A stretch of DNA of 64,000 nucleotides, taken from contig NZ_KB913028.1 of assembly GCF_000384135.1 (NCBI RefSeq), forward strand, positions 1,329,351-1,393,350, written 5' to 3'. A program made the translations under genes and the position numbers. A model generated the notes under the pieces. That model had not been told where the DNA came from, did not search any database, and saw only the letters and a list, made by a program, of their open reading frames with translations. This DNA comes from Succinispira mobilis DSM 6222 (lineage in GTDB: Bacteria; Bacillota; Negativicutes; Acidaminococcales; Succinispiraceae). Below are positions 1 to 13,832 of the stretch, piece after piece; within the stretch, counting starts at the first letter, position 1; each line of letters starts with the position of its first letter.

Positions 1-2517
1 CTTTTTATGATCTTCACTTATTATTTTTACCAGGCTAGCTTTAACTGCTTTGTGAAAGCCAACTTCAACGTTAAGTCTTTCCGCAATTTCTGTAGTTGCG
101 CACAATGAATACGCTCTTGATAACTCATTAACAAGTTTTATGTAATCGTTTTTCCGTTCTTCACGAAGACCAATAATATAGTCCATGGTTTCAACAATCG
201 CCTGCATTTTTTCACTCGGCTTACCATTAAAGAATTTGCTGTAGTCATGCCCATGAAGTAATTCTTTAATAAGGTCATGTTTTTCAAGTAAAACTTGCGC
301 TGCAAGTTCCGTATCCACCCCTGTAGTCTTTTTATCGCTTTCAGTGTACTGATTTAAAGCTTCTTTTAAATTCTCAGCAATACCAATATAGTCAACTACC
401 AGACCACCCTGTTTATCTTTAAAGACCCTGTTTACCCTGGCGATGGCTTGCATTAAGTTATGACCGCTCATGGGCTTATCAATATACATAGTGTGCATGC
501 TGGGTACGTCAAAACCTGTTAGCCACATATCGCGTACAATGACAAGTTTTAGCTCATCATTTTTGTCTTTCATACGCTTTGCAAGAGTTTCTCTTGTAGA
601 TTTGGTTCCAACGTGCTTTTGCCACGCTTCAGGATCAGATGAACTGCCCGTCATAACAATTTTAATTTTGCCAGACATCACATCATCACTGTGCCAATCT
701 GATCTAAGGTTGATGATTTCAGCGTAAAGCTCTACGGCAATTCTTCTACTCATTGCTACGATCATACCCTTACCACCAGCATCTACCTGAGCTTGCTCTC
801 GCTTTTCAAAATGCTCTACAATATCGCTTGCTACTTTTTGAATACGCTCTTTTGCGCCGACAACAGCTTCAAGTCTTGCCCATTTGCTTTTTAATTTTTC
901 TTTTTCAGTGAGTTCTTGATATTCCGTTATTTCATCATATTCCATATCCACTTGTGGCTTTATTTCTTCTGGAAGTTCTAGCTTAGCAATCCGACTTTCA
1001 TAGAAAATTTTAACGGTAGTTCCATCTTCAACGGCTCTAGTCATATCGTAAATATCTATATAGTCTCCAAATACCGCTTTAGTGTTTTTATCAGTCAGTT
1101 CTACTGGAGTACCAGTAAACCCAATATATGACGCATTTGGCAGGCTATCACGCATATATTTGGCGTAGCCATATTTAGTATCCGCCTCACTATCATCTTT
1201 TACAACTTCAGCCCCAAAGCCATATTGACTTCTATGCGCTTCGTCAGCCATTACGATAACATTTTTTCGATCTGTCAGTACTGGAACAAAATAAGGGACA
1301 CTTCTCTCAGCAACCAAAAATTCCTCTACTTCTTCTTTGGCTTTATGCATTGCGGGAGCAAATTTATGAATAGTGGTAAAAATAATGCCACCGCTGGTCC
1401 GATTGTTTAAAAGTTCTCTTAAATGCTCTCTGTCATTGGCTTGAACTGGTGTACATCTGATTAAATCCTTAGACTTAAAAAAAGTACTGTACAGCTGATC
1501 GTCTAGGTCATTTCTATCCGTAATAATAATTATTGTAGGGTTTTCAAGTTCTTCATTGATCACAAGTTTTCCTGCATAGAAAACCATCGACAAGCTCTTA
1601 CCGCTCCCTTGAGTATGCCATACAACCCCGATTCTTCTATCCCCTTTTTCCTGGGTGGCTCGTTCTGTACTATCTACGGCCTTATTTACGGCGTGGTACT
1701 GATGATAACCAGCCAAAATCTTCATTGAATCTGCCCCATCGCTTTGAAACAAAATAAAGTGTTTGATAATATCTAAAAATCGGTCACGTTGAAACATTCC
1801 TTTAATAAGCACTTCAAGCTGAGGAATTGAAATAGGCGCCGTTCCCTCTCCATCGATAGTTCGCCAAGCCATAAAGCGGTCTTCATCGGAAGTCAAAGTG
1901 CCTGCTCTTGCATTGATTCCATCACTGGTTACCATAAAGGCATTATAAGTAAATAGAGAAGGAATAACGCTTTTATAGGTTTGAAGCTGGTTATAAGCAT
2001 CGCTGATATCTACATTTTCATCTATCGCACTTTTAAGTTCCACTACTACTAGAGGTATACCGTTTACAAAGACAATGAGGTCTGGTCTTTTTTCAACACC
2101 ATGCTCTACAATGGTGAATTGATTAGCCACCATTAGTTCATTGTTGAGTGGCTTTTCATAGTCAAAGACATAGACTTTTTCTGTTCTATAGCTTGCATCT
2201 GCCTGCTTAACCGATACGTCAATCCCATCGGTAATCATTTTCTGAAAAGCCTTGTTGTTCATTAGTAGACTCGGACTTTGAGGAATACTGATTTGCCTAA
2301 AAGCATCTTCAATTGCTGAGGATGGCATCTTGGGATTAATCCTCCCAAGAGCATCTTTTAATCTTTCCGCTAAAATAACATCACTATAATCCTCACGCTC
2401 TGGATATTCCCCTTCAGGCGCAATATCAGGGCCAAAGACAACTTCGTAGCCTAGTTCTTCAAACCATTCAAGAGCTGCTTCTTCAAGCTGTGATTCATAA
2501 AAAGCATTCTTTGCCAT
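1..2517 (-). CDS. hsdR: Type I restriction enzyme, R (motor/nuclease) subunit, partial
   Basis: This frame is open from an ATG at 2517 to the window edge, so 839 residues are visible and the C-terminus is missing. It is the ATP-driven translocase and nuclease of a type I restriction complex. Visible in order: an N-terminal PD-(D/E)xK nuclease region (PDLIVFVNG...VVVELKS, about residues 145-165), Walker A HTQGSGKS near residue 300, DEAH box DEAHRSQYG near 423, and a helicase C-terminal core ([16 protein letters not shown], about 670-695). The start overlaps the hsdS stop as TAATG, so the genes are translationally coupled. No frameshift is seen in the visible part. Confidence 0.95.
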
Positions 2518-3755
2518 TACTGCACCTCCTCAATTGTCACTCGGATTTCACCGGACATTAGTTTGGGGAGTAGTGTGTCGCGAGTTTCGATTAATATACT
2601 TGTTTTTTTCTGATTTTCTAAAATTTTCACAAAGATTGGTTCTATAATTTGAGTATACTTTAACATAGAATTTTCATTCGGGATGATTAACTTAATCTTA
2701 GAAAATTGTGATTTATTAAGATTTAATGTAGTGCTTCCACCACTCCCCAAATCTTTAATTTTATCACTAAAACTTTTCATACATTGATAAATATAATAAT
2801 GTTCGATACCATCTTTGCAGATTATACTATTAATTTGTTGGTTTGTTTGACTTTCTGTTGAGGTTAGTGATACCAGCCCTGGTGTTGCAATACAACTTAC
2901 AACGACACTGTTTTTAGGTAAAGTTTTTTTAGGCTGTGTTTTTACACCTTTATTCGTAAGATATCTTTCTGTTTTTGTAATATACACATTCCCATGCATA
3001 TCAGGTATTGTTATAAATGGTACATCGCCACCAAAATTGTCCTTATCCTTTGTTGAAGGCGTTTTTCCACAAACTATTTCTTTTGAAATCTCTTCGATCG
3101 TCCCTACTCTCCACCCCTTAGGAATCATCCCAAGTTCACTCTCTTCAAACTCACCCTCTTGAAAAGGCTCAAAATCAACAAACCAACTTTTAAAGATTGC
3201 CTGTGCCATTTCTTCTAGGTTTTTGTTCATGCGATTGTTGAGTTCGATTTTGTCATCGAGGCATGAGAGGGTAGCGGCGATGGCTGTTTGTTCTGGGAGT
3301 GGGGGTACCTGAAATCTAAAAGCTCTCATTTGTTTTAAGCCCATATTCTTAATTGTAGTTCCAGAAGAATGGGTGTTCAAATATGACTTAAATATGCTGC
3401 TATGCATGACATATTTGATAAACTCTTTGCTAAAATCATGTTTTACATTAAAATAGCATGCACTTTTTCCAAGTACTATTTTTTCTCCATTGTAAACAGC
3501 TATATTACCCAAAGTTCCATTAATTGATATGAGAATTGTTCTGTCATTCAAATCTTTCTTATACTTTACGTATTCTTCATATCCAACTCTTTTTGTTTTA
3601 TCATCAATTGCAATTTTTCCAACAAGATTATTTCCATTTATAAAATAATAATCGCCTAATTCGTCATATTTGGGTGTACCATGCAATCCATCGCCTAGAA
3701 TATCAACAACATCATCTAATACAACCTCTCTCCACTCACTAGAACTCATAGCCAA
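2517..3755 (-). CDS. hsdS: Type I restriction-modification, specificity subunit S
   Basis: 412 residues with the two-target-recognition-domain layout of HsdS. TRD1 covers about residues 1-150. A central conserved helix follows ([23 protein letters not shown], about 152-175, ending in [11 protein letters not shown]). TRD2 starts near [16 protein letters not shown] (about 210). A C-terminal coiled-coil repeat ends in [13 protein letters not shown]. Each TRD reads one half of a bipartite DNA site and the helices set the spacing. The start lies 17 bases inside hsdM and the stop overlaps the hsdR start, which indicates a tightly coupled operon. The recognised site cannot be predicted from sequence by eye. 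Confidence 0.93.
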
Positions 3756-5220
3756 TCGCCCCCAATCGTTGCTTGATTTCCTCCTCTAAATGATGAGATT
3801 TAGCAAACATTTCGGCCAGTTCTTCTGTTAGTCTGGTCATTTTCTCTTCAAAGGGTTCAGCATCCACTTCTGCTTCTTCAATGCCTACATATCTTCCTGG
3901 CGTTAGGATATATTCATGCTCTCTGATTTCTTCAATACTTGCGGACTTGCAGAAGCCTTGAACATCTGCATATGCTTCTTTCCCATCTCGCCAGTTATGA
4001 TAGGTGTCACAAACTGATTGTATTTCTTCATCTGATAGTTCTCTATGTTTTCTGGTGACCATCGTTCCCATTTTTCTGGCATCAATAAAGAGTACCTTGT
4101 CTTTTCGATCTTCTCTCTTTTTAGATAAGAACCACAGACATACAGGTATGGTTACGTTATAGAACAGGTTTGTAGGCATGGTTACTATACAGTCTACAAG
4201 ACCTGCTTCAAGGATGTTTTTCCTAATTTCTGCTTCGGCTTTGGTCGAGGTACTCATAGAGCCATTGGCTAATACAAAGCCTGCTACCCCTTTAGGTGAG
4301 AGCTTACTGATGATGTGCTCAATCCAAGCATAGTTGGCATTGTTTGCTGGTGGAATTCCGTATTTCCAGCGGGCATCGTCTTGAATCAACGTGTAATCGC
4401 TTACGTTAAAGGGTGGATTGGCTAGGATATAATCTGCTCTAAGATTCTTGTGCATATCATTGCCAAAAGTATCCCCATCACGCTCGCCTAAGTCGCCATC
4501 AATTCCTCTGATGGCCAGATTCATTTTACAAAGTCTCCAAGTCGTAGCCGTATACTCCTGTCCATATACACGAATATTGTCTTTTCGACCTTGATGTTCC
4601 TCGACAAATTTTGCTGATTGAACAAACATCCCTCCTGATCCGCAACAAGGGTCATATACGCGGCCCTCAAAAGGTTCAATCATACCTACTAGCATTTTAA
4701 CAATGCTCGGTGGCGTGTAAAATTCTCCCTCACTTGAGCCAAACTTCCCTAAGAAATATTCATAAACGCGTCCTAAAATATCTTGCGCTTTCGCTTCTTT
4801 ACTGCCCAAATTAAATGAGAACAGGTCGATAAGCTCACCAAGTTTCGTTTTGTCTAATTCTGGTCTTGCGTAGTTTTTTGGCAGAACGCCTTTAAGATTT
4901 TTATTTTCTCTTTCGATGGCAATCATCGCTTCGTCTATGATCTGACCAATTGTGCTTTGTTTGGCACTTTTTTTAATAAATTCCCATCTTGCACTTGGTG
5001 GCACAAAGAAAATATTGTCTTCTGCATAAGCATCTCTATCCTCTTCAAAGCCATCACCTTCTTCGACTAGCTCATTAAATTTTTCTTCAAAGCTATCAGA
5101 AATATATTTCAGGAAGATAAGTCCTAAAACAACATCTTTATAATCCCCTGGTTGAATATTTCCCCTAAGTTTATCTGCCATTGCCCATAAATTGTTTTCG
5201 AATTCTAAGTTCACAGCCAT
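3739..5220 (-). CDS. hsdM: Type I restriction-modification, DNA adenine-N6 methyltransferase subunit M
   Basis: 493 residues, normal HsdM length. The N-terminal HsdM helical domain ([16 protein letters not shown]) is followed by the SAM-binding motif [11 protein letters not shown] (about residues 188-198) and catalytic motif IV ANPPF (about 267-271), both intact, so this subunit should methylate adenine. The C-terminus is a charged helical tail that docks on HsdS. An AGGAGGGG-type ribosome binding site precedes the ATG. The gene lies 12 bases downstream of the degenerate methylase-like gene at 5233-6813, which leads the operon. Confidence 0.95.
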
Positions 5221-5232
5221 TATATACCCCTC

Positions 5233-6813
5233 CTAAATTAACTGGTTGTATAATTTATTTTTTACGTTCTGCCACTTTGTTGTGGCTTGTTGCACTACAT
5301 TTTTATAATGGTTTAACTCTTCATTATAAATTTTAATTAGCTCATGTTGTTGCTCTAAGGCTAATAGTGGAATTTCCATTTCCATGATATCCAGATGGTT
5401 GATATTCATAATGGTTGTTCCTCTTTGAAAACTTTTAATGATTGCTGTTCCAATGGGGCTTTCAAAGAAAATCTTTATATAATCTCCTACTATGGTTTCT
5501 TTAGGTCTTATGACAATCAAATTTGCTGAGGCAATAATGGTTTTATCCTGCTTTTTAAATACTGCTGATTTGATAGCCGTGCCGCGGCAGGATATAACTA
5601 CGTCACCTGCATCTAATTCATATCTTTTTATTTTCCGTTCATCTTCTTCAATACTATCCATATTTGTATAATCAATTTCCCCATTATCGATATTAGAAAT
5701 GTTTAAAATACCTATGTTACCAACGGTAGTATCTTTCTTTAAAATAGACTTACCTCTAAATACTTCCGCTACTTCTTTTAATTTGATTTTTTCTAAATTA
5801 GAGCTTTTGAATTTTTGAATATTTGCATCGTCATCGGATAGTAGTAGCTCAATCCGCCAATCCTCATGACTTAAGAATTCTTGAGTTTTTATTTTTTTCA
5901 GTCCTTTAGGCTCGAACTTTTCTTTTAGTAATTCTAAAGTCCCGACTTCAATTTGTTCTATCTTTTGTTTGGTTATTGAAAAGAAATATGTTTTGATTGC
6001 AGTTGTCGGTCTAAATGTGCCTTCAGGTAAAATATAAATATTCTTAACACTAAAATTTCTGGTAATATAGGTTCTTAATTTTTCAAATCCCTGAGCAGCA
6101 AAAGTTATTTTTGCGGGAATGATAATATCTAAAACACCATTTTCCTTTAAATGATTTAGCATATTTTCCACAGCAATCCCGTCACTTTCTTTGGTCATAA
6201 ACACTTTTCCTAGTTCATCTGGCCTATATCCAAAAGCAGGTAGGGCGTATATATAATCAAACTTCAAGTCTAGTAGACAGTCCTTGTAGATTGATTCAAA
6301 GATCACCGTCACATGTTCATAGTCTTGAAAAGCAAATTTCAAAAACTTATACATTAAATTATATTGCGTGGTTAAGGTAATGCTTTTGTCTGTAAACGAA
6401 GTTACTAAGTCTTTTAAGCCAGCCAAATGCTTTTCCGCCTCAGGAATAAGGAAACTGTTGGGATTAATTTTCTGCACTTGCTCTTTTATGTAACAAGTTA
6501 GATACTGTGGGGCTATGATTATGCCCATTCGATCGTTTTTATAAATTTCTAAAGTAAACTGAATTAGATCTATTTCTTCAAGTGCAGCAAAGATATCAAA
6601 AAAGTCATCTCTATCAGCTGGGAAAAAGCCAAGTTCTTCTTCGGTTATCTTTTTCATAAGCTGAAATAGCTTTTCTTTATCTTGTTTTATCTTTGGTTGG
6701 TCTTTTAAAGCTTCACTGGTCATTTTGACTCTAAGCATTTCACCTAAAAGCTGTTCCCTCGAAGAAATTTGCCTGCGGTATAACTCATTTAAGGCCACTT
6801 CTATATTATTCAC
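5233..6813 (-). CDS. HsdM-like domain with lost catalytic motif fused to an HsdS-like recognition domain
   Basis: 526 residues, GTG start chosen because AAAGGAGG lies just upstream. Residues about 1-300 follow the HsdM fold: the segment LDLKFDYIYALPAFG (183-195) aligns with the HsdM motif IV region [10 protein letters not shown], and the following NHLKENGVLDIIIPA and FRPTTAIKTYFF match the HsdM helices and strands after motif IV. The catalytic N and second P are replaced (ALPAF in place of ANPPF), and no CGSG-type SAM motif is visible, so methyl transfer is unlikely. Residues about 340-526 look like one HsdS TRD (KLKEVAEVFRGKS, GDVVISCRGTAI, IPLLALEQQHELI plus a coiled coil). It is the first gene of the hsd operon. 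It may be an extra specificity or regulatory subunit; the function is unknown. It could also be the decayed half of an M-S fusion enzyme, but the frame is intact. Confidence 0.7.
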   Translation of the reverse strand: MNNIEVALNELYRRQISSREQLLGEMLRVKMTSEALKDQPKIKQDKEKLFQLMKKITEEELGFFPADRDDFFDIFAALEEIDLIQFTLEIYKNDRMGIIIAPQYLTCYIKEQVQKINPNSFLIPEAEKHLAGLKDLVTSFTDKSITLTTQYNLMYKFLKFAFQDYEHVTVIFESIYKDCLLDLKFDYIYALPAFGYRPDELGKVFMTKESDGIAVENMLNHLKENGVLDIIIPAKITFAAQGFEKLRTYITRNFSVKNIYILPEGTFRPTTAIKTYFFSITKQKIEQIEVGTLELLKEKFEPKGLKKIKTQEFLSHEDWRIELLLSDDDANIQKFKSSNLEKIKLKEVAEVFRGKSILKKDTTVGNIGILNISNIDNGEIDYTNMDSIEEDERKIKRYELDAGDVVISCRGTAIKSAVFKKQDKTIIASANLIVIRPKETIVGDYIKIFFESPIGTAIIKSFQRGTTIMNINHLDIMEMEIPLLALEQQHELIKIYNEELNHYKNVVQQATTKWQNVKNKLYNQLI

Positions 6814-6848: not shown

Positions 6849-6878
6849 ATTATAAATTATTACCATTTAGTATGTCAA
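6849..6878 (-). promoter_or_regulatory. Consensus promoter of the hsd operon
   Basis: On the minus strand, TTGACA (6878-6873) is followed by an 18-base spacer and TATAAT (6854-6849), both perfect sigma-70/sigma-A boxes. Transcription would start near 6842, about 30 bases before the GTG of the first hsd gene. The -35 box is exactly the loop of the 21-bp inverted repeat 6852-6899 and the spacer is one of its arms, so repressor binding would block RNA polymerase. Confidence 0.8.
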
Positions 6879-6899
6879 TACTAAATGGTAATAATTTAT
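6852..6899. repeat. 21-bp perfect inverted repeat around the hsd promoter
   Basis: Arms 6852-6872 and 6879-6899 are perfect reverse complements separated by six bases (the -35 box). The core of the arm is ATTACCATTTAGTA. It has no U-tract and sits over a promoter, so it looks like an operator rather than a terminator. No regulator gene is adjacent; the HsdM-like protein itself or an unlinked repressor could bind it. Confidence 0.75.
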
Positions 6900-11569: not shown

Positions 11570-12541
11570 TTATTGGGCAGTTCGTTTTAAATCAGCAATC
11601 ATTTGCATATCATCTGCGGGTACGCGTCCACCTGTAGTCAAGTAGCCCCCAACTAACATTCCGTTTAAACCACCTGATAAAGCCATTGCTTGTAAATCGC
11701 GTAAATTCCGTTCACGGCCCCCAGCTGTCCGAATTGTAGCTTTTGGTAAAACAAATCTAAACATCGCAAACGCCCGCAAAATTTCTAACGGCTCTAAATC
11801 TTGCATTGCTTCTAACTTAGTTCCTGGTACTGGATGCAAAATATTAAGTGGTATTGAGGTAATTCCCATAGCTTTCAAATCAAACGCCATTTCTACTCTT
11901 TGCTCCCGTGTTTCACCTAAACCCATAATACCGCCAGAGCATACGGCAATTCCCGCTTTTTTGGCATTATCAATTGTAAACATCTTATCTGCATAAGTAT
12001 GGGTTGTACAAATGTTAGGAAAATGACTTTTTGAGGTTTCGACATTAGCATGATAGCGAGTTACGCCCACTGCCGCTAAAGCTTGCGCCTCTTCAAATGT
12101 TAAGATGCCCAACGACGCACAAACTTTCATGTCTAATTCTTCTTTAATCCGTTTAAGGACAGTCAAAATTCTTTGAAAATCATCTTTTTTACCCATACCC
12201 CGACCACTTGTAACAATAGAAAATCTATTTACACCAGCCTGCTTAGTTTTACGTGCTGCTTCTAATAATTCTTCCTCTTTTAATAATTCATGTTCTGCTA
12301 TACCAGTTTTATGAAAAGCTGACTGAGCACAAAATGAACAATTTTCTGGACAGCGACCTGATCTAGCATTGACAATTGAACATAAATCAACTGCATCACC
12401 ATGATATTTTTGTCTGATTTTATCCGCTAAAGCTATTAGCAGCATTGTATCTTCATCGGATGTATTAATAATTTCTACACCTTCTGCATATGTAAGTTCT
12501 TCCCCATTTAATACTTTATTAGCCAATTCAATTAATCTCAT
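11570..12541 (-). CDS. bioB: Biotin synthase
   Basis: 323 residues, radical-SAM enzyme inserting sulfur into dethiobiotin. The CxxxCxxC cluster motif is CPENCSFC (about residues 65-72), preceded by SIVNARSGRCPE. The [2Fe-2S] ligand region is VCASLGIL and YHANVETS, and the Arg ligand lies in the conserved TIRTAGGRE stretch. It is the first gene of the biotin operon, directly behind the BirA-type operator. Confidence 0.96.
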   Translation of the reverse strand: MRLIELANKVLNGEELTYAEGVEIINTSDEDTMLLIALADKIRQKYHGDAVDLCSIVNARSGRCPENCSFCAQSAFHKTGIAEHELLKEEELLEAARKTKQAGVNRFSIVTSGRGMGKKDDFQRILTVLKRIKEELDMKVCASLGILTFEEAQALAAVGVTRYHANVETSKSHFPNICTTHTYADKMFTIDNAKKAGIAVCSGGIMGLGETREQRVEMAFDLKAMGITSIPLNILHPVPGTKLEAMQDLEPLEILRAFAMFRFVLPKATIRTAGGRERNLRDLQAMALSGGLNGMLVGGYLTTGGRVPADDMQMIADLKRTAQ

Positions 12542-12581
12542 ATTTTGCCTCCAGTTTTTTCTATAAATTTCTTACTGCTCT

Positions 12582-12610
12582 ATTATAACTAGATTCCGAA
12601 GATATGTAAA
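12582..12610 (-). promoter_or_regulatory. Promoter of the biotin operon
   Basis: On the minus strand, TTTACA (12610-12605), a 17-base spacer and TATAAT (12587-12582). The -35 box lies inside one half of the BirA-type operator, which explains how the operator would repress. Confidence 0.75.
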
Positions 12611-12635
12611 CCTATTTTTTATTTTTAGTTTACAT
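12604..12635. promoter_or_regulatory. BirA-type biotin operator
   Basis: Half-sites ATGTAAAC (12604-12611) and GTTTACAT (12628-12635) are perfect inverted repeats with a 16-base spacer. This fits the known BirA box of TGTnAAC and GTTnACA halves separated by 14-16 bases. It lies upstream of bioB and overlaps the -35 box. It implies a BirA with a DNA-binding domain elsewhere in the genome. Confidence 0.8.
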
Positions 12636-12636
12636 T

Positions 12637-12691
12637 AAAAAATCCTCTTACAAAAAAGTTTTTCAACTTAATATTAGTAAGAGGATTTTTT
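12637..12691 (-). terminator. Terminator after the DUF362 gene
   Basis: Arms 12637-12650 and 12678-12691 (AAAAAATCCTCTTA and complement) form a 14-bp stem with a U-tract on either strand. It ends the gene at 12696-13832. Confidence 0.75.
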
Positions 12692-12695
12692 GATA

Positions 12696-13832
12696 TTATT
12701 TATTTGTAGTACGCAATTTTTGCCAATAACGAATGAGTTTTAATAAATTGCCCGCTTGCAAACTAATCGCATTAGCTGGACAAAATTCTTGACAACAATA
12801 GCAACGAATACATTGTTCATAATTAATCTGTAATTTCTTACCACTTAACTTAATCGCTTGAGGCGGGCACTGTTTTAAGCAACGCTGACATAATATACAA
12901 TTAGCTTGAATAATCGGCCTTAAAGTTAACTGTTTTTGCGCTATGGCTACCAAACTCTTGGGCAAGCGATCACTGATGCTAGTATAGTTATTGGCAGCTT
13001 GAAATTTTCTTATTAACTGCCGCTCTGCTTCAGCCAACTTCAAGTTTGGACTTATTAAGCCCTGTGCAAGTGCAAGCCTAGTAACGGGCATTTTCTCACC
13101 AGCAAAGCCCATCAAATCTGCCATTATTTTATCTACCGCTAGTGCCGATTTGCCTACCAAAATCAGCTCACTGTTTATAGGTGTGCCATTACGCGGGCCT
13201 GCCCCTTCCATCCCTACAATTCCATCGACAATACTCAGGCATGGTTTTACAGTTTGATGTAACTCAATTAGCATTTGCGCAAAATCATTTTGCTGGGGCA
13301 TGCGCAAATGAAATTGCGCTTTACTTGCACCAACTACACAGCCAAACAAATTTTTAACCGCGCCACTAACTCCAGTTAGAGAATGAGTTTTCATTTTTGC
13401 TAAAGAAATAACTTTATCTACTTTCCCCAATATTTCCGCCAGGTAAAAGCGTTTTATCGTCTTGCCCTGGGGATTGCTAAACTCTCTAACACCAGTAAAA
13501 TCTACTAATTCAACTGCTTCTTCCTGGCACACCGCTTCAATACCAGCTACTTTGGCAACTTGTAAAGTGCTTTGATAGCCGGGGGAATCGCCGACCAAAA
13601 TTTTCACCTTATAAGGCTTAAGTACACGAATTAAAGCCCTTAAGACCTCTGGGTGAGTCGTGACAGCTCGCTCTACGCTTACAGCTTCCACTAAATTAGG
13701 TTTTATAAGTACGGTTTCACCAGCATTAAAAAAACTATTCTCTAGTGCTAATTCTTCAAAAGCAGTAGTTAGTGCTTGTTCTATAGCTACTAAATTATAA
13801 TTTTGCACTTTTTTTATTACTACTTTTTCCAT
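12696..13832 (-). CDS. DUF362 domain protein with C-terminal 2x[4Fe-4S] ferredoxin domain
   Basis: 378 residues. Residues about 1-290 are a DUF362 domain (VLIKPNLVEAV, TTHPEVLRALI, KMKTHSLTGVSGAVKNLFG). Residues about 308-360 carry two CxxCxxCxxxC clusters (CILCQRCLKQCPP and CIRCYCCQEFCPA), so it should bind two [4Fe-4S] centres. Members of this family are thought to be iron-sulfur or redox proteins; the reaction is unknown. It is a single gene with its own terminator. A paralogue with the ferredoxin domain placed internally is at 33278-34408. Confidence 0.85.
   Translation of the reverse strand: MEKVVIKKVQNYNLVAIEQALTTAFEELALENSFFNAGETVLIKPNLVEAVSVERAVTTHPEVLRALIRVLKPYKVKILVGDSPGYQSTLQVAKVAGIEAVCQEEAVELVDFTGVREFSNPQGKTIKRFYLAEILGKVDKVISLAKMKTHSLTGVSGAVKNLFGCVVGASKAQFHLRMPQQNDFAQMLIELHQTVKPCLSIVDGIVGMEGAGPRNGTPINSELILVGKSALAVDKIMADLMGFAGEKMPVTRLALAQGLISPNLKLAEAERQLIRKFQAANNYTSISDRLPKSLVAIAQKQLTLRPIIQANCILCQRCLKQCPPQAIKLSGKKLQINYEQCIRCYCCQEFCPANAISLQAGNLLKLIRYWQKLRTTNK

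Follow-up and report, generated by a model that had tools for sequence, protein, structure and literature searches.

A predicted self-regulating controller of a type I restriction-modification operon in Succinispira mobilis: a natural, catalytically dead fusion of HsdM with half an HsdS

Two controllers encoded at the head of type I restriction-modification (hsd) operons have been described. HsdC from Mycoplasma gallisepticum binds the promoter of its own operon (PMC5282649); its gene lies upstream of hsdM, hsdS and hsdR and the protein apparently acts as a repressor (PMC12707154). The gene of the repressor RptR precedes type I operons and carries the RptR site in its own promoter (PMC12255303). 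Among type II systems, some methyltransferases repress their own gene via an operator that overlaps their own promoter (PMC3874152). From the engineering side, a fusion of HsdM with half an HsdS, M1/2Sfus, was reported to dimerise and to methylate a palindromic bipartite site (PMC6158711). A literature search for pseudo-methyltransferases, HsdS-like proteins or the product of a fourth gene as regulators of type I systems yielded none beyond RptR and HsdC, both of which are small proteins unrelated to the one described below.

Here we analyze the first gene of an hsd operon, which we call X4, in a 64,000-nucleotide stretch of the genome of Succinispira mobilis DSM 6222 (the window). We consider it very likely, judging from the sequences, that X4 is a self-regulating controller of its operon, acting via a predicted operator, and that it originated as a natural fusion of HsdM with half an HsdS that is now catalytically dead. 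The reading as a self-regulating switch is proposed because the same palindrome precedes nearly 90% of the X4 genes of relatives. For coordinates see Table 1.

Architecture and conservation of X4

The X4 frame is uninterrupted (526 codons) and begins with GTG behind a strong ribosome-binding site (AAAGGAGG). The gene heads the operon, whose order is X4-hsdM-hsdS-hsdR, and the host genome encodes one such protein. The initial annotation of this DNA had noticed an intact frame leading the operon and an active HsdM with intact motifs beside it; both observations hold, the HsdM having CGSGG and NPPF, with the start of X4 now refined to GTG.

Table 1. Positions of the X4 operon, its proposed operator and promoter (window numbering), and of related genes at other loci.
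Feature	Position	Strand	Remarks
X4	5233..6813	(-)	526 aa; pseudo-HsdM/half-HsdS fusion according to Pfam, motifs, AlphaFold and fold matches
Recognition domain and C-terminal helix of X4	5233..5823	(-)	about residues 331-526; homologous to Esub1 (PDB 8vsq, 8vsr)
hsdM	3739..5220	(-)	493 aa; DPCCGSGG and NPPF intact; start 12 bp beyond the X4 stop
hsdS	2517..3755	(-)	412 aa; complete, two recognition domains, two Methylase_S stretches (Pfam)
hsdR	1..2517	(-)	839 aa within the window; runs beyond the window edge
Perfect palindrome, proposed operator	6852..6899	.	48 bp, ATAAATTATTACCATTTAGTAT-GTCA-ATACTAAATGGTAATAATTTAT; 22-bp arms, 4-bp centre
Conserved operator core	6866..6885	.	TTTAGTAT-N4-ATACTAAA; common to homologous loci
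-35 box TTGACA	6873..6878	(-)	exact centre of the proposed operator
-10 box TATAAT	6849..6854	(-)	18 bp from the -35 box
ADP-ribosylglycohydrolase-HsdM, examples	L018:8905-10479, L067:8506-10392, L123:9420-11834		PF03747

We predicted the structure of the X4 monomer with AlphaFold2, using an alignment of 15 homologues, and obtained a model with a mean pLDDT of 88 and a pTM of 0.81. The chain comprises an HsdM fold (residues 1–330), a recognition domain (residues 331–485) and a single long C-terminal helix of 40 residues (486–525). A superposition of residues 1–330 with the HsdM structure 3lkd resulted in a Z-score of 25.3 and an r.m.s.d. of 3.4 over 325, and residues 1–329 matched a further HsdM structure, 2okc, with Z = 25.2. 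Residues 330–526 superimposed on Esub1 (8vsq) with Z = 25.0, an r.m.s.d. of 3.2 over 196 and 32% identity. In Pfam, residues 208–344 match the C-terminal part of N6_Mtase (E = 4e-5) and residues 339–495 match Methylase_S (E = 4e-12); the only other match is a weak one to Eco57I. Because the fold matches assign residues 1–330 to HsdM and residues 330–526 to Esub1, and the chain ends in the C-terminal helix, X4 is, according to the model, an HsdM and half an HsdS joined in a single chain: its recognition domain is of the HsdS type, but there is one such domain and one helix rather than two of each.

The HsdM fold is retained without its functional signatures. The SAM-binding glycine motif, DPCCGSGG in HsdM, is replaced by FLIPEAEKH, and the catalytic motif [NDS]PP[FY] is absent, with ALPAFG at the position of NPPF. 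The initial annotation had read the N-terminal half as an HsdM fold with ALPAF instead of ANPPF and without a CGSG motif, and the C-terminal half as similar to an HsdS recognition domain. Structure prediction and comparison bear this out (Z about 25 over residues 1–330) and refine the C-terminal half to a single recognition domain followed by a single long helix.

Relatives of X4 were collected from the genomes of the host class (380), a sample of the phylum, the GTDB contig collection and IMG/VR contigs. Within the host class, nine genomes besides the host gave a match, which in one genome is a fragment of the C-terminal half; the phylum sample added eight loci (one incomplete) and the GTDB contigs another 66, several of which are identical to loci already found; five IMG/VR contigs carry X4 as well. 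Hosts in the GTDB contigs belong to Clostridia, Negativicutes and Bacilli and include a Thermotogaceae MAG; X4 also occurs in MAGs labelled Alphaproteobacteria, Myxococcales and Melainabacteria, labels that may be wrong. In the contig collection a single X4 sequence as query gave nothing and a profile search gave the loci, which were picked by peptide patterns inside X4; the operator was therefore not selected for by the search. A tblastn search of plasmids and phages with X4 returned only distant MS fusions (see below), other type I and S proteins, and a single short record from a phage.

X4 directly precedes hsdM in nearly all complete loci; both genes are on one strand, and the gap between them is often 10–20 bp. 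None of 67 aligned homologues contains [NDS]PP[FY] (two retain the Asn, as NPIF), the glycine motif is replaced by a sequence of the type xLITEAEKHL, and two close X4 copies differ with dN = 0.028 against dS = 0.138. Based on these sequence comparisons, X4 is a conserved family that lost catalysis long ago and in which the protein has been retained. No homologue with intact motifs was found and the neighbours are conserved in other genomes, the two points on which the initial annotation had let its reading stand or fall.

Some related operons contain additional elements. In the divergent X4 clade (defined below), an ADP-ribosylglycohydrolase domain (PF03747, E = 1e-34 or better) is found at the N-terminus of the HsdM that comes after X4; this protein has about 805 aa when complete, and after it there is often a second, plain HsdM. 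A literature search for a pairing of ADP-ribosylglycohydrolase with HsdM gave nothing relevant. Genes of the RhuM family and KilA-N genes lie between hsdM, hsdS and hsdR in related operons (L011:4109-5170; L063:10057-11127 and 12457-13338) and are absent from the window. On the Carboxydocella plasmid pCCELLA01, a 194-aa gene consisting of a recognition domain only (L025:7911-8495) directly precedes hsdM, with a TTAGTATTGATA half-site upstream; it is possibly a split X4.

The palindrome and its position

The X4 promoter in the window (TTGACA-18-TATAAT) matches the consensus in 12 of 12 positions, and its -35 box lies within the palindrome. The palindrome in the window is much longer than the core that is conserved in front of X4 homologues, TTT(A/G)GTAT-N4 (rarely N5)-ATAC(T/C)AAA. 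Sites were scored with a leave-one-out matrix, and 681 windows from the same loci served as controls. Sixty of 68 X4 loci (nearly 90%) scored above the maximum of all control windows. After clustering at 85% protein identity, the site is present in 48 of 55 clusters and seven have no clear site; one locus, L094, was masked in the leave-one-out scoring and entered the cluster count through the strict motif. All 100 half-sites contain GTA, which the strict search pattern itself demanded; the leave-one-out score and the weaker loci were free of this demand.

The position of the site relative to the promoter falls into two groups. In 29 of 49 strict-motif loci, the window included, the operator and the -35 hexamer share the same centre; this is the case in most of the clade that resembles the window (>50% identity). 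The other sites are found upstream of the -35 box, at 17–29 bp in 19 loci and at 32 bp in one, and this arrangement is seen in a divergent clade (<39% identity) and in L099 and L100. The two clades also differ in the variable base of the half-site. In the window-like clade it is A/A in each of the 26 loci scored; the divergent clade has 15 G/G, three mixed and no A/A sites.

Occurrence of the palindrome follows X4. Among the 380 genomes of the host class, the strict pattern was found in seven of the ten with X4 versus 12 of the 370 without (Fisher p = 3e-8), and in these 12 an examination of 1.5 kb showed no hsd genes near the sites. The site is also missing within 1.5 kb of eight hsdM loci that have no X4 (HsdM 53–61% identical); one of these lies in the host genome. 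The host genome contains the pattern three times: at X4, at a relic of another X4-hsd locus and, in weaker form, at one place elsewhere. We considered the second of these (G000:C1:1711297) as a second target and rejected it. The relic (L076, G000:C1:1706000-1716500, site at 5298) matches L015 with 92% identity from the upstream gene as far as the first codons of X4, is then cut by a transposase-bearing stretch and resumes at the 3' end of hsdR.

In its outer arms the palindrome stays symmetric although the sequence is not conserved: at least six extra pairs are present in 14 of 47 loci, compared to 1.1 expected from permutation. Such cases include the window palindrome (6852-6899), L016, L095, L099 and L122. 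Correction by template switching or a role of the DNA structure are possible explanations.

Candidate reader and proposed mode of action

Which protein reads this site? We compared 16 operons in which no gene is incomplete: HsdM has a mean pairwise identity of 82%, HsdS of 38% and X4 of 59% over its whole length, while its recognition domain, the most conserved part of X4, reaches 73%. A conserved site is unlikely to be read by HsdS, because HsdS varies whereas the recognition domain of X4 is conserved; the latter thus appears to be the only conserved reader in the operon. Since the operon is inherited as a block, co-variation alone cannot name the binder, and this point is carried by loci in which the recognition domain stands on its own.

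Esub1 of Streptococcus pyogenes matches residues 332–526 of X4 with a profile E-value of 7e-54 and 32% identity. With Esub1 as query, only X4 proteins were found at E = 1e-22 in 398 genomes of the phylum. In two Lactobacillales genomes, a frame of 198 aa consists of the recognition domain and the helix only and is about 50% identical to Esub1; no hsd genes were found around it. Each of these frames is preceded, 19–36 bp before the start codon, by ATTTTAGTATTATAATACTAA, which is expected about 2e-5 times per 250 bp. The two genomes (about 2 Mb) contain four and five sites, where 0.15 would be expected. Two of the further sites are at comparable places in both genomes, one inside the stand-alone gene itself and one between pyrF and pyrE (names read from sequence). 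Another site is located before a gene for a Trep_Strep membrane protein. These additional sites of stand-alone Esub1-like genes (L172, L173, L197, L198, L173:9859) may form a small regulon. As the stand-alone loci keep the site, the palindrome accompanies the domain without HsdM, HsdS, HsdR or the pseudo-methyltransferase part. We regard these loci as the strongest single argument, by sequence comparison, for the recognition domain as the probable reader.

Based on the predicted structure and the conserved palindrome we propose the following mode of action. X4 would have arisen from an HsdM fused to half an HsdS; cofactor binding and catalysis would have been lost, and the recognition domain and the pairing helix retained. 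Two X4 molecules are supposed to pair via their C-terminal helices in the manner of the two halves of an M2S methyltransferase. The two recognition domains would then face each other and read TTT(A/G)GTAT-N4/5-ATAC(T/C)AAA, in effect (A/G)GTA-N6-TAC(T/C), a palindromic version of a bipartite type I site. Because the centre of the site in the window is the -35 box, the dimer would cover this box and block RNA polymerase. X4 thus most likely acts as a repressor, as a dimer on its own promoter, and accumulation of the protein would shut off X4-hsdM-hsdS-hsdR by negative feedback. In this way X4 most likely sets the amount of restriction enzyme made by the cell. The purpose could be to hold down the level of the enzyme and still allow a new copy of the operon to start fast in a naive cell.

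The initial annotation had offered three roles for the protein: a swap of recognition, regulation of assembly, or binding to the operator of its own operon. The conserved palindrome strongly supports the last of these; the first fares badly, as discussed below. "Fourth subunit", the term used there, is probably the wrong word, and controller protein fits better.

The sign of the regulation is left unfixed by the position of the site, since a site upstream of the -35 box would also suit an activator. Type II C proteins both activate and repress (PMC3874152), and the 17–29 bp upstream position in 19 loci is a place used by activators; activation is therefore possible in the divergent clade. That X4 is in general an activator or, as with type II C proteins, an activator that becomes a repressor once its level is high, is nevertheless unlikely in our view: the site is centred on the -35 box in the window and in 28 other loci, and the full-consensus promoter of the window should need no help.

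A second specificity subunit, which would recruit the HsdM of the operon to methylate or restrict an additional palindromic site, is quite improbable. The idea has its attractions, as X4 contains the recognition domain and helix of an HsdS and is translated beside an intact HsdM, and dimers of half-HsdS proteins do read palindromic type I sites (PMC6158711). In X4, however, the docking place of HsdM is occupied by its own HsdM-like domain, which lacks the catalytic motifs. The domain and the palindrome persist without HsdM nearby, and the site is rare and found at X4 promoters instead of genome-wide, unlike a modification site. The swap of recognition suggested in the initial annotation is disfavoured on similar grounds: the recognition domain of X4 is conserved compared to the variable HsdS, catalytic motifs are missing, and the palindrome is kept where there are no hsd genes.

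Even less credible is a scenario in which an unrelated host regulator reads the palindrome, or the palindrome is a terminator or DNA hairpin, with X4 as a bystander or as a modulator of complex assembly. The length of the palindrome in the window, far beyond the core, and the unconserved symmetry of the outer arms would suit such a structure. The core, in contrast, has a conserved sequence in many genera, its occurrence goes with X4 rather than with hsdM, and its half-site base follows the X4 clade. A terminator was rejected since the palindrome is located upstream of the -10 box, contains only three G-C pairs and has no T run on the operon strand.

Finally, the chance that X4 is a decaying methyltransferase relic is negligible: its SAM and NPPF motifs are gone and other hsd genes have been lost at L061/L087, L082 and L098, but decay is already contradicted by the more than 60 complete open frames found across many families, by the conserved neighbours and by the low dN relative to dS, and we rejected it.

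If the controller reading of X4 is right, a further and more doubtful step can be imagined. The phage protein Prx binds DNA-binding proteins. X4 has the shape of the methyltransferase core against which phage anti-restriction mimics are directed, and for this reason such a mimic (Ocr, ArdA or Prx-like) would displace X4; the displacement is a guess. X4 might then be a decoy sensor, pulled off its operator by the DNA mimic so that the phage's own counter-weapon would turn on the restriction operon. In a wider sense, type I recognition domains might form a separate class of bacterial transcription factors, in general use in streptococci as Esub1. We rate this extended picture as improbable.

Relation to known systems

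In the broad sense of a restriction-modification controller, X4 has what such proteins have in common, a conserved predicted site in its own promoter. With HsdC it would share the status of a controller gene of a type I hsd operon with a site at its own promoter. HsdC, however, is a small helix-turn-helix homologue of C proteins that recognizes direct repeats, (GTGTTAN5)2, and its fold is unrelated; with 526 aa X4 is not a small helix-turn-helix protein of the kind found in type II C proteins and HsdC. RptR is a small four-helix protein with TAGCTA sites and differs from X4 in size, fold and site. The self-repressing type II methyltransferases resemble the proposal for X4 in that a modification-enzyme fold is placed at its own operator. 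They are active enzymes that use an N-terminal helix-turn-helix, whereas X4 is predicted to be enzymatically dead and would use its recognition domain.

In its build X4 resembles M1/2Sfus, in which HsdM is likewise followed by one recognition domain and one helix; M1/2Sfus is an engineered and catalytically active protein, whereas X4 occurs naturally and its catalytic motifs are gone. A family of larger MS fusions (600–660 aa; Salimicrobium pSJ25, Lactococcus pJM2A and others) likewise combines an HsdM-like part with half an HsdS 5' of hsdM. These proteins differ from X4 by a longer N-terminal part and a partly retained glycine motif, and most are without the exact X4 palindrome. NPPF is altered in 10 of 10 aligned members, and two (L021 and L179) have TTAGTAT-N5-ATACTAA in front. 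Members of this family (L069-L075, L020, L021, L178-L180) mostly head hsd operons in Bacilli and Clostridia, and L069 and L074 have other palindromes near a TTGAC sequence.

Esub1 (PDB-entry 8vsq; 8vsr for the complex with the phage protein Prx) resembles the recognition domain and helix of X4, and its relatives in two Lactobacillales genomes share the palindrome; it has no HsdM-like part, and the related loci in this analysis are without hsd genes. The comparison offers a possible role for a protein with a solved structure and a known phage-protein partner. X4 itself would stand for a family of controllers whose operator can be predicted in dozens of genomes. If the proposal is true, it is a natural methyltransferase-specificity fusion turned transcription factor, in which a type I recognition domain takes the place of the helix-turn-helix. 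By membership X4 belongs neither to the C proteins and HsdC nor to RptR or the self-repressing type II methyltransferases, and is best described as a probable restriction-modification controller built from a dead modification enzyme.
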